A stretch of DNA of 64,000 nucleotides from positions 930,001 to 994,000 of the forward strand of contig NZ_JABSPA010000002.1 in assembly GCF_013214175.1 (NCBI RefSeq). The letters run 5' to 3'. Origin of the DNA: Colwellia sp. (GTDB lineage: Bacteria; Pseudomonadota; Gammaproteobacteria; Enterobacterales; Alteromonadaceae). Below are positions 45,034-62,300 of this stretch, one piece after another; the first letter of the stretch is position 1, and every line of letters starts with the position of its first letter. The position numbers and the translations under genes are program-made. A model generated the notes under the pieces. It saw only the letters and a list, made by a program, of their open reading frames with translations. It did not search any database and was not told where the DNA came from.

Positions 45034-45465
45034 ATGGCTATCGAACGTACTTTTTCTATCGTAAAACCAGACGCAGTTGCTAAAAACTTCATCGGTCAAA
45101 TCTACAATCGTTTTGAAACTGCTGGTTTAAAAATCGTTGCTTCTAAAATGATCCACTTAAGCAAAGAAAAAGCTGAAGGTTTCTACGCTGAACATAGCAA
45201 ACGTCCTTTCTTTGGTGCTTTAGTTGAGTTCATGACTTCAGGTCCAGTTATGGTTCAAGTTTTAGAAGGCGAAAACGCTGTTCTTAAAAACCGTGAAATC
45301 ATGGGTGCTACTAACCCTGCTGAAGCACTTGCTGGTACTATCCGTGCTGATCTTGCTGATAGCATCGACGAAAATGCTGCTCACGGTTCTGACGCTTTAG
45401 AATCTGCTGCACGTGAAATTGCTTACTTCTTCTCAGACGAAGAGATTTGTTCACGTACTCGTTAA
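45034..45465 (+). CDS. ndk: Nucleoside diphosphate kinase
   Basis: Transfers the gamma-phosphate between nucleoside di- and triphosphates. 143 residues, the standard length. [12 protein letters not shown] at the N-terminus, [19 protein letters not shown], and the catalytic His in [12 protein letters not shown]. Codon use is strongly biased, as in highly expressed genes. AAAAGGGCTTATC before the ATG supports the start. The mRNA 3' region contains a conserved structured element (45462-45584) and a strong terminator at 45589. Confidence 0.97.
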
Positions 45466-45504
45466 TTCATTTTTAATTTTCGCAAAGCTCACGACTTCAT
45501 TGTC

Positions 45505-45541
45505 GGCTGTACTCATTGACTAGCGTCAACTCCGTGCAGCC
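45505..45541 (+). ncRNA. Conserved internal-loop hairpin in the ndk 3' region
   Basis: GGCTGTAC pairs with GTGCAGCC (8 bp), then an internal loop TCA/CTCC, then TTGAC-tagc-GTCAA (5 bp). It is nested in longer pairs: GCAAAGC (45482-45488) with GCTTTGC (45562-45568), and TTAATTCAT including the ndk stop codon (45462-45470) with ATGAATTAA (45576-45584). The same core, with compensatory base changes, is found after guaB and guaA. Probably a cis-acting structured RNA or a repeat family member. Confidence 0.65.
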
Positions 45542-45588
45542 TTCTAGAATTCATTTCGCTTGCTTTGCTTAAAGCATGAATTAAATTG

Positions 45589-45622
45589 AAAGGATTTTAC
45601 TGAGTGTCAGTAAAATCCTTTT
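45589..45622 (+). terminator. Intrinsic terminator after ndk
   Basis: AAAGGATTTTACTGA-gtg-TCAGTAAAATCCTTT is a perfect 15-bp stem with a 3-base loop, then TATTATTTT. It closes the ndk transcript after the structured element. Confidence 0.93.
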
Positions 45623-45760
45623 ATTATTTTAAGTGGATTATAAATTCGCTTAAGATAACCAGTAAAATTGCGATTGTTGCTTGAAAAGCGTACAATGTGC
45701 GCCTTGTTTTTTAGGCTGCTTTATCGAGTAGTTTAATTTTAGTTATTGAGAGTTTGTTGT

Positions 45761-58835: not shown

Positions 58836-60308
58836 ATGCTAAGAATTGCCCAAGAAGCTTTAACTTTTGATGACGTATTACTTGTACCTGCTCATTCAAA
58901 AGTACTCCCACACACGGCTGATTTAAAAACTAAATTAACCCGTAAAATTAATTTAAACGTACCGATGATTTCTGCGTCTATGGACACAGTTACCGAAGCG
59001 CGTCTAGCGATCACGTTAGCGCAAGAAGGTGGTTTAGGTTTTATTCATAAAAACATGACCATTGCTGAACAAGCGCAGAATGTTTCTCAAGTGAAGAAGT
59101 ATGAAAGTGGCATAGTTTCAGACCCTGTAACTGTAGATAGCAAATTTACTATTGAACAGGTTATGCACAAAGCTGATGACCTAGGTTTCTCAGGTTTCCC
59201 CGTTGTTGATGATAATAACAATTTAGTGGGTATCATCACTGGACGTGATTTACGTTTTGAAACAGATTTAAGTAAACCTGTCTCTTCACTAATGACAATA
59301 AAAGAAAATCTAGTGACAGTTAAAGAAGGCGCTGCTCGCGAAGAAATTTTAGGTTTAATGCACAGTAACCGTATTGAGAAAATCTTAGTGGTTGATGATG
59401 CGTTTAAACTTGTAGGTCTTATTACTGCAAAAGATTACCAAAAAGCTGAAGACAAGCCTGACGCCTGTAAAGACGAATTTGGTCGTTTACGTGTTGGTGC
59501 TGCTGTAGGTGTTGGCGCAGGTACTGATGAGCGTATTGACGCTCTAGTGGCTGCGGGAGTTGATGTTTTATTAATTGATACTTCACACGGTCATTCACAA
59601 GGTGTATTAGATAGAGTTAAAGAAGCCCGTAATAAATACCCAGACTTGCAAATTATTGCCGGTAATGTTGCAACCGCATCGGGCGCAAAAGCTATGGCTG
59701 ATGCCGGTGTTGATGCCGTTAAAGTAGGTATAGGCCCAGGGTCAATTTGTACTACACGTATTGTTACAGGTGTGGGTGTGCCACAACTAACTGCTATTTC
59801 AAATGCTGTTGAAGGCTTGAAAGGCACAGGTATTCCAGTGATTGCTGATGGCGGTATTCGTTTCTCGGGTGATATTGCTAAAGCACTTGTTGCTGGCGCG
59901 CACTGCGTTATGGTTGGTAGTATGTTAGCCGGTACGGAAGAAGCACCAGGTGAAGTTGAGCTTTATCAAGGTCGTTACTACAAGTCTTATCGTGGTATGG
60001 GCTCTTTAGGGGCTATGGCGCAAAAAGATGGCTCAAGTGATAGATACTTCCAAAAAGCTGAAGGCGAAGCAGACAAATTAGTACCAGAAGGTATTGAAGG
60101 TCGTGTTGCTTATAAAGGCCCTGTAGCGGCAATTATTCATCAGCAAATGGGTGGTTTACGTTCGTCAATGGGCTTAACTGGCTGTAAAGATATTGAAACT
60201 ATGCGTACCAAACCTGAGTTTATGAAAATTACTTCAGCCGGTATGGGCGAGTCGCACGTACATGACGTTACCATCACCAAAGAAGCGCCAAACTATAGAA
60301 CGGGTTAG
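58836..60308 (+). CDS. guaB: Inosine-5'-monophosphate dehydrogenase
   Basis: Oxidises IMP to XMP, the first committed step of GMP synthesis. 490 residues: a TIM barrel interrupted by two CBS domains (about 95-205; [37 protein letters not shown]). The catalytic Cys loop is [15 protein letters not shown], then [12 protein letters not shown] and [21 protein letters not shown] before the ATG. Followed by a structured element, a terminator, and then guaA, so guaA probably also has its own promoter. Confidence 0.97.
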
Positions 60309-60352
60309 TCGAACAGATTATTTCTGTGCTAGTTAACGCAATAGCAGCATCA

Positions 60353-60387
60353 GAAGTGCTCACTGACTAGCGTCAGCTCCGCGCTTC
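60353..60387 (+). ncRNA. Conserved internal-loop hairpin after guaB
   Basis: GAAGTGC pairs with GCGCTTC (7 bp), then the internal loop TCA/CTCC, then CTGAC-tagc-GTCAG (5 bp). A longer outer pairing exists: CTAGTTAACGC (60329-60339) with GCGCTAATTAG (60400-60410), about 10 of 11 pairs. The same core as after ndk and guaA, with different stem bases but conserved pairing and loop. Confidence 0.65.
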
Positions 60388-60469
60388 TTCTTTGCTTTAG
60401 CGCTAATTAGCTTTGAACTAAACTATTCTTCATCTCTTAATTAAAATTAAGAAGATAACAAATTCAAAC

Positions 60470-60510
60470 AGGCTGAGCAGGAATCTCACAAGAGAAAGCT
60501 CAGCCTTTTT
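60470..60510 (+). terminator. Intrinsic terminator between guaB and guaA
   Basis: AGGCTGAGC and GCTCAGCCT form a 9-bp stem with a 19-base loop, followed by TTTTTATTT. Confidence 0.85.
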
Positions 60511-60584: not shown

Positions 60585-62162
60585 ATGAGTAAAAACATTC
60601 ATGATCACCGCATACTAATATTAGATTTTGGTTCTCAGTACACTCAACTTATCGCACGTCGTGTACGTGAAATAGGTGTTTACTGTGAACTTTGGTCGTG
60701 GGACGTAACTGAAGAGCAAATTAAAGGTTTTAACCCAACGGGTATTATCCTTGCTGGTGGTCCAGAGTCAGTAACTGAAGCTAACTCTCCTCGTGCACCT
60801 GAATATGTATATACCGCTGGCGTACCAGTATTAGGTATTTGTTACGGCATGCAAACCATGGCTGAGCAACTTGGCGGTGGTGTTGAAAGCTCGAGTCATA
60901 AAGAATTTGGTTATGCTGCTGTTGAGTTAATTGCCCAATCTGCGTTATTCAACAAAGTTGAAGACAGCGTTGGTGATAATGGTAATGCCTTACTAGACGT
61001 TTGGATGAGTCACGGCGATAAAGTGTCTGCAATTCCTGAAGGCTTTGTTACTGTTGCAAAAACAGCAAGTTGTGCTTTTGGCGCAATGGCCAATGAAGAG
61101 AAGAAATTTTACGGCGTACAATTCCACCCTGAAGTTACGCACACAAAACAAGGTTTACGCATTTTAGAAAACTTTGTTGTAGATATCTGTAAATGTGAAA
61201 AGCTTTGGACTTCAGCGTCAATTATTGATGATGCTATTGCCAAGATGAAAGCACAAGTAGGTGACGATGAAGTTATCCTTGGTCTTTCTGGTGGTGTTGA
61301 TTCATCTGTTGTTGCCATGTTATTACAGCGCGCTATCGGTGATAAACTGACTTGTGTATTTGTTGATAACGGTTTGCTTCGTTTAGATGAAGGCAAGCAA
61401 GTAATGGATATGTTTGGTGATCATTTTGGTCTTAAAATTATTCATGTTCAGGCTGAAGACAGATTCTTAGATCGTTTAGCCGATGAAAGCGATCCAGAGA
61501 AAAAACGTAAAATCATTGGTAACGTTTTTGTTGAAGTATTTGAAGAAGAATCAAAGAAACTTGAAAATGCTAAGTGGTTAGCACAAGGTACTATTTACCC
61601 TGATGTGATTGAGTCAGCGGCTTCTGCTACTGGTAAAGCACATGTGATTAAATCTCACCATAACGTTGGTGGTTTACCTGAGCATATGGAAATGGGTCTA
61701 GTTGAACCATTACGTGAGTTATTCAAAGATGAAGTACGTAAAATCGGTTTAGAGCTAGGTTTACCGTACGACATGCTTTATCGTCACCCGTTCCCTGGAC
61801 CTGGTTTAGGTGTACGTATTTTAGGTGAAGTGAAAAAAGAATATGCTGACTTATTACGTCGCGCCGATGCTATTTTCATTGAAGAATTACACAACCACGA
61901 CTTATACAAAAAAGTAAGCCAGGCATTTACCGTATTTTTACCGGTAAAATCTGTAGGTGTGATGGGCGATCAGCGTAAATACGATTGGGTTGTTTCTTTA
62001 CGTTGTGTTGAAACTATCGACTTTATGACCGCTCGTTGGTCACATTTACCGTATGATTTCTTAGGCTTAGTTTCTAACCGTATTATCAACGAAGTTGATG
62101 GTATCTCACGCGTAGTTTACGACATCTCTGGTAAACCACCAGCGACTATCGAATGGGAGTAG
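60585..62162 (+). CDS. guaA: GMP synthase (glutamine-hydrolysing)
   Basis: Makes GMP from XMP, ATP and glutamine. 525 residues, exactly the usual length. Class I glutamine amidotransferase domain (catalytic Cys in [11 protein letters not shown], His-Pro-Glu in QFHPEVTHT), ATP-pyrophosphatase domain with the P-loop [14 protein letters not shown], and a C-terminal dimerisation domain ending [11 protein letters not shown] 60585 with TAGGA upstream fixes the start over 60549. It lies downstream of guaB in the normal order but behind a terminator. A structured element and terminator follow. Confidence 0.97.
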
Positions 62163-62195
62163 CTTTATAGTAAGCTTGATATAACAATCAACTTC

Positions 62196-62241
62196 GGCGT
62201 TGAAAGTACTCACCTATAGTCATAGGCTCCGTGCTTCCGCC
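62196..62241 (+). ncRNA. Conserved internal-loop hairpin after guaA
   Basis: GGCG (62196-62199) pairs with CGCC (62238-62241), AAGTAC with GTGCTT, then the internal loop TCA/CTCC, then CCTAT-agtc-ATAGG (5 bp). Compared with the ndk and guaB copies the upper stem bases have all changed while pairing is kept, which is strong evidence for a selected or recently copied RNA structure. Confidence 0.65.
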
Positions 62242-62300
62242 TTGAATTTGAATGTTCTACCTACGCTTTCAATTAAAGCTCTGCATATAGAATTTAATTT

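Follow-up and report, generated by a model that had tools for sequence, protein, structure and literature searches.

The 64,000-nucleotide stretch of the Colwellia sp. genome analyzed here (hereafter, the window) contains three copies of a hairpin element of about 120 nt that are located downstream of ndk, guaB and guaA, respectively (Table 1). The first bases of the ndk copy fall within the ndk stop codon (TAA, 45463-45465); the host of the second copy is guaB, given that the top NCBIfam match for the C-terminal 300 aa of its product is IMP dehydrogenase. These three are part of a set of 34 strong copies detected in the 5.01-Mb genome with the covariance model R1, each 118-121 nt long and scoring at least 68.6 bits; the next-best match in the same genome is a single one at 32 bits, which leaves a gap below the 34. 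The pattern of the apical core, RYRCTCA-N(8-20)-CTCCGYGC, has 26 exact matches genome-wide compared to none for the reversed-pattern control. The Rfam comparison suggested by the first-pass annotation provided no family for the element: there was no match at the gathering score within the window, and in five loci with copies, the single match above the gathering score was a lysine riboswitch located apart from the element.

Table 1. Positions in the window of the three element copies, their apical cores and adjacent features
Feature	Positions	Strand	Basis
ndk, gene upstream of the element copy	45034..45465	+	NCBIfam, nucleoside-diphosphate kinase
Element copy 3' of ndk, ~120-nt hairpin	45464..45582	+	R1 match, 86.3 bits
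Apical core of the ndk copy, GTAC-TCA-TTGAC-TAGC-GTCAA-CTCC-GTGC; internal loop TCA/CTCC, T.G mismatch	45509..45537	+	Pattern match
Intrinsic terminator 3' of the ndk copy	45587..45623	+	Terminator scan; arms present in 30/30 ndk loci read
Element copy 3' of guaB (stop TAG 60306-60308)	60310..60429	+	R1 match, 108.2 bits
Apical core of the guaB copy	60356..60384	+	Pattern match
Element copy 3' of guaA (stop TAG 62160-62162)	62162..62279	+	R1 match, 90.7 bits; guaA by NCBIfam
Apical core of the guaA copy	62206..62234	+	Pattern match

Every copy is a ~120-nt hairpin of fixed geometry in which the internal loops are conserved in sequence and the arms covary. At the apex, a 5-pair stem closes a 4-nt loop; below it lies the internal loop TCA/CTCC, followed by an 8-pair stem with a T.G mismatch that is present in 94 of the 97 non-redundant copies, a second, sequence-conserved internal loop CRTY/YKCYTT, and longer outer stems that contain a 3x3 loop. 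The 40 pairs of this structure were set on an ungapped 120-column alignment of 25 of the 26 pattern copies (L021, which needs a gap, was omitted). In this alignment, both sides change in 36 of the 40 pairs and the covariation score is 0.627, compared to 0.210 in shuffles and at most 0.186 in slid versions; 87.3% of the cells are paired (63.2% in shuffles), two-sided changes are found in 254 cells (85 in shuffles), and none of the 500 shuffles attains any of the five covariation measures, although these figures amount to no formal probability because the structure was derived from these same copies, which are related to one another. The stems and loops that the first-pass annotation quoted at the three genes are present in the sequence, and the compensatory changes around a conserved TCA/CTCC that it described are borne out by this alignment. 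The apical hairpin that it took as the unit also stands, but not its extent: the pairing level is 0.66 at the first column of the ~120-nt unit and drops to 0.16 two columns outside, being at the background level just beyond the edges. Columns 55 and 93 (in a 149-nt frame) covary without standard pairing, with C.T in 16/26 and T.G in 8/26.

All 34 copies in this genome are located at a gene edge. Twenty-eight of these are in the sense orientation, the distance between the end of the upstream stop codon and the left foot ranging from -14 to +12 nt; the remaining 6 have the inverted orientation, and their left foot is offset by -35 to +12 nt relative to a start codon (taken as the first possible one). 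The polarity is apparent also across genomes: of the 97 non-redundant copies, 94 have enough flank, and an ORF stop lies no more than 15 nt from the left foot in 79 of them and from the right foot in 4; for the distant copies, a sense stop is found 12 nt or less from the left foot in 13/31, and the right foot is at a convergent stop in 2/31. None of the 31 distant copies read is contained in an ORF of at least 100 aa. A neutral repeat was expected in the first-pass annotation to lack covariation or to include copies inside genes, neither of which is the case. One locus (L093) contains a head-to-head pair between two co-directional genes (G000:C13:652122-652241 on the plus strand and 652297-652416 on the minus strand), with one copy in the sense orientation after the stop codon of the first gene and the other inverted ahead of the next start codon.

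The sense hosts are dapD, iscA, lapB, glyA, dnaB, guaB, flgI, eno, acnB, dnaK, hisG, infB, yajC, mreB, ubiU, purH, argS, purL, guaA, ilvE, nqrF, ndk, acnD and tuf, along with genes for an acyl-CoA dehydrogenase and an aldolase-II protein; one inverted-copy host encodes a lipoamide-dehydrogenase-type protein. These names are the top NCBIfam matches for C-terminal 300-aa pieces, some of them below the cut-off, and there was no NCBIfam match for 2 of the 28 sense hosts and 2 of the 6 inverted hosts. A guanine-metabolism regulon (ndk, guaB, guaA) was rejected because the hosts are a mixture of housekeeping genes, with purH, purL, guaA, guaB and ndk accounting for 5 of the 28 sense hosts. The most recurrent hosts across genomes are nqrF (7 records), iscA (6) and guaB (5, two of them from Aliivibrio), and 4 of the 6 inverted-copy host genes bear an inverted copy in other genomes as well. 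The Aliivibrio and Colwellia guaB copies are 45-48% identical, less than random pairs are on average (55.5%), which gives no support to common descent at the guaB site.

The genome and genus-wide covariance-model search that had been proposed along with the original description revealed a broad distribution. All 39 Colwellia genomes searched (this one included) match, with at least 6-44 matches each, and R1 matches at E 0.01 were obtained in 8 of 8 relatives, namely two Aliivibrio, two Photobacterium, Thalassotalea, Thalassomonas, Pseudocolwellia and an uncultured member of the Alteromonadaceae. At E 0.001, R1 matches 37 of the 274 genomes of the class and 67 of the 299 genomes of the phylum, 53 of these 67 being outside the class. 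The weak distant matches may include other families, given that long palindromes can score through pairing alone; TCA...CTCC is seen in 24 of the 29 class loci inspected (at least one, L316, is mis-sliced near a contig end), a count that is not independent because R1 rewards this motif. A Pseudomonas genome yielded 12 weak R1 matches at E <=10 (the best at 0.002), and the apex TCA...CTCC or CTGC was found in 9 Pseudomonas copies read. In Pseudomonas tumuqii (G087; L259, L261-L268), such an apex lies within a longer palindrome, several of which end TTGAAAAAC...GTTTTTCAAC. Head-to-tail tandems occur in Pseudocolwellia and Photobacterium obscurum (G084:C12:244576-244810, G086:C23:95801-96029 and G086:C9:49128-49374).

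Among the 132 pattern-matched loci (112 + 20), R1 was run on 46 + 54, and 32 (L175-L206) were scanned for the core and pairing only. The control set of 54 loci, viral and mostly unrelated bacterial, produced no R1 match at E 0.01, and nothing below E 0.8 was found in the Chitinophaga and Mycoplasmatota control genomes. Carriage by phages was rejected, the core pattern being present in 20 viral contigs none of which matches R1; a plasmid search found nothing with its two queries, a Colwellia copy and a distant one.

The first-pass annotation could name no family for the hairpin, but the element resembles ERIC (also IRU or RU-1), which is described as a MITE of Enterobacteriaceae and Vibrionaceae in the available text of PMC10969869, PMC2229807 and PMC2759123. 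Both are imperfect palindromes (~120-127 bp in ERIC) that are intergenic and multi-copy, and both share the apical plan TCA - 5-bp stem - 4-nt loop - CTCC, the ERIC apex reading CAG-TCA-CTTAC-TTAT-GTAAG-CTCC-TGG. In addition, 3 of 9 ERIC stretches start about 10 nt or less from a sense stop codon. Of 9 enterobacterial ERIC loci, 6 are matched by R1 from one end to the other, in the place and orientation of the ERIC element, with E-values from 1e-4 to 0.055; the model missed the other three and found nothing beyond ERIC in the same 8872 bases at E <=10. The reciprocal model R2, built from 9 ERIC sequences, matches 7 of 30 copies of the Colwellia sp. genome at E <=1 (the best at 7e-7) but none of 8 Vibrionaceae and 4 Pseudomonas copies. 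R2 also reveals a further copy in this genome that is absent from the R1 list (L031, 1701-1823, minus strand; G000:C13:158968-159090; E 3e-6); it has an ERIC-style core (CAG-TCA-CTTAG-TGTA-CTAAG-CTCC), is located just past a stop codon and faces an R1-type copy. A search for the ERIC consensus at the DNA level produced weak and partial hits in 2 of the 274 genomes of the class.

There are also differences between the two. The arms of ERIC share little sequence with those of the Colwellia-type element, and in the R1 alignment, ERIC has one base fewer below the loop and is missing the T.G mismatch. The available text of PMC2229807 and PMC2759123 describes TA termini and a TA duplication for ERIC, whereas the ends of the members identified here are either GTRAC...GTYAC or not fixed, some distant ones showing 8-bp duplications; across 96 copies, fixed TA termini were not found, and 2-bp duplications are present in 0/17. 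Thus, the element is best treated as a relative of ERIC and not as ERIC proper, and the end-to-end recovery of 6 of the 9 ERIC copies indicates that it is a branch of a superfamily that contains ERIC. Judged from these comparisons of sequence and structure, the kinship appears well supported. Among the literature matches listed, none links ERIC to Colwellia or Alteromonadales.

The hairpin was originally proposed to be either a selected 3'-UTR RNA structure or a transposed palindrome family, and the pairs in the arms bear on this choice. The arms demand Watson-Crick pairs, and G.U is tolerated no better than A.C. In the 97 non-redundant copies, the 2716 cells of the arms comprise 2478 Watson-Crick, 42 G.U, 49 A.C and 147 other combinations (the count was restricted to pairs that are at least 80% standard), with G.U in 39 and A.C in 43 of the 1940 cells of the variable pairs. 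The inverted copies contribute 4 G.U and 10 A.C of 385 cells. By contrast, 29 lysine riboswitches of the genus contain 148 G.U versus 3 A.C in 1376 cells (18 versus 1 among the 289 cells of their variable pairs), and the arms of the ndk terminator, 4 G.T versus no A.C in 360 cells; this control set is small, consisting of one riboswitch and one terminator. The riboswitches come from 29 of 30 loci that passed a length filter, out of a larger set of matches, and were taken instead of the FMN riboswitch, which is present in too few genomes of the genus (3 of 39); tRNAs were unusable because the program draws standard pairs only. The element windows were kept if they were ungapped, contained the core and had at least 29 of the 40 pairs standard with G.T counted as standard (97 of 127 remained after 85% redundancy filtering), so that the scarcity of G.T is not caused by the filter. 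Helices 4-5 taken alone favor G.U (14 versus 9 A.C of 1164 cells). For the same gene in different genomes at more than 70% identity, there are 253 Watson-Crick double changes, 143 A.C steps, 52 G.U steps and 290 others, as sums over non-independent comparisons. We read these counts as indicating that the fold of the arms is selected as DNA, or that the arms are copied, rather than that the transcript is selected; it is most likely as DNA that the shape of the element is maintained.

The leading alternative is that the hairpin is co-transcribed with its host gene as part of the 3'-UTR and controls mRNA decay, processing or the behavior of the ribosome at the stop codon. The sense orientation of 28 of the 34 copies and their tight spacing from the stop codon are what an RNA function would give too. 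The same host genes recur in other genomes and genera, housekeeping genes (tuf, eno, infB, guaA, purH, ndk and others) are frequent among the hosts, and ERIC in Yersinia sets a precedent, being described as destabilizing mRNA depending on orientation, with an RNase E site, in the available text of PMC10969869 and PMC2229807. The predicted folds of the window copies likewise speak for RNA and against the DNA reading: the plus-strand RNA folds of the ndk, guaB and guaA copies have z-scores of -5.4, -4.3 and -3.2, each beating 200 of 200 dinucleotide shuffles, and the minus-strand DNA folds are less exceptional (-2.9, -2.3 and -3.1, equaled by 2, 5 and 1 of the 200 shuffles, respectively). However, G.U does not exceed A.C even in the sense copies (33 versus 37 of 2214 cells), unlike in the lysine riboswitch, and 6 of the 34 copies are inverted at start codons. 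On balance, we consider selection on a 3'-UTR transcript unlikely.

We regard as somewhat more unlikely still a mutational process that keeps the arms complementary while the fold is under little selection. Template switching perfects quasi-palindromes, and such a process would yield arms that have only Watson-Crick pairs, contain G.T and A.C equally often and change in pairs. Under this scenario, though, the mismatched loops should vanish as well, whereas TCA/CTCC is retained in all 26 pattern copies (the pattern itself demands this motif) and in 24 of 29 distant matches (the model rewards it).

REP/BIME elements are intergenic hairpins often found downstream of genes, and the proximity of REP hairpins to stop codons has given rise to the idea of ribosome stalling and mRNA control. 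A REP-type element moved by RAYT (REP-associated tyrosine transposase) would share with the present one the intergenic hairpin with an internal mismatch and the polar placement, but REP/BIME are short and RAYT-linked (20-40 bp for REPs in the available text of PMC3733652, compared to 120 nt here), and this candidate was rejected as highly improbable because a search for Y1_Tnp (PF01797) at E 1e-5 found no match either in this genome, for all its 34 copies, or in three other genomes (G003-G005) with at least 36-37 copies each. Pseudomonas intergenic repeats are described as preferring tail-repeat-tail sites in the available text of PMC2718517.

The ndk copy directly precedes a terminator, but the possibility that the element is part or a variant of a terminator can be dismissed with similar assurance, since a separate terminator is kept at all 30 of the ndk loci examined, whether the element is present or not. 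In the genus, ndk was found in 38 of 39 genomes, and 18 of the 30 loci read have an element match at E 0.1; four loci look decayed or apex-deleted, three with a match (L312, L299, L309) and one without (L306). At the same ndk 3' site, L288-L290, L305 and L314 carry other sequence with, by eye, TTGTAG...CTACAA-like arms. The first-pass annotation placed each copy between a stop codon and a terminator, which holds for the stop codons and for the ndk terminator; the scan gave no terminator where one would be expected 3' of guaB and guaA, so that ndk is the only gene for which a copy is firmly placed ahead of a terminator. An inverted repeat precedes a T-run at 60466-60510 downstream of guaB, whereas downstream of guaA there is no 12-nt inverted repeat, a shorter hairpin and a T-run being visible by eye.

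The description as a transposed palindrome family fits what was found, a repeated, structurally constrained element with copies next to stop codons. Our preferred reading, to which we assign a probability of roughly 0.6, is that these are non-coding, non-autonomous, mobile-type elements that form the Colwellia branch of an ERIC-containing superfamily, with the folded DNA hairpin as the likely relevant form. The DNA fold would be either a hairpin formed by one strand or a cruciform, and a protein, most simply the transposition machinery, would read the conserved loops. Integron attC sites similarly combine a free arm sequence with conserved mismatches and are read as folded single-stranded DNA, the difference being that the conserved part of the present element is at the apex. 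Copies would settle beside stop codons, doing little harm there, and persist until decayed.

Evidence on mobility comes from the distant copies, of which 7 of 33 have exact 8-bp flanking duplications, compared to a shuffled mean of 0.21 (the largest value being 3). The 33 are 40 stretches minus 7 without a core by the pattern, and their ends were set by complementarity and GTAA, not by the duplication. Copies with the duplication mostly end GTAA...TTAC-type and are all from outside the class (L406, L407, L411, L412, L413, L416 and L420), the genomes concerned being G386, G461, G501, G559 and G608; duplications of this length are present in none of 12 Colwellia copies with settable ends and none of 5 other in-class copies. 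In one genome (G485), several copies have common right flanks, so the unit there may exceed the hairpin. The 8-bp duplications and the GTAA...TTAC-type ends suggest that an IS66-type transposase would move the elements in trans, which is the weakest step of the proposed mechanism. In the available text of PMC11946415 and PMC3916326, IS66 elements likewise have ends beginning with GTAA and 8-bp target duplications, but the ends are GTAAGCG (PMC11946415) as opposed to GTAACTAYTCAGC in the elements described here. Extended further, ERIC and the Colwellia-type elements may constitute a single old superfamily that reaches beyond Gammaproteobacteria, with the folded DNA hairpin, the stop-codon polarity and a putative IS66-type transposase in common, a proposal that is decidedly tentative. 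In such a superfamily, the trans-acting transposase would read the two conserved internal loops and leave 8-bp duplications.

This analysis describes a new ERIC-related branch with a wide span and presents a quantitative case against a transcript-level function, for which more controls are needed. Dozens of divergent copies in Colwellia have rewritten arms with unchanged loops and geometry, and such copies allow a statistical approach to the question of whether DNA or RNA is selected. The importance of the shape of ERIC is a long-standing question, and the transfer mechanism is given as still unexplained in the available text of PMC2759123 (2007). The elements described here add a stop-codon polarity and, in distant members, target duplications that suggest a class of transposase.
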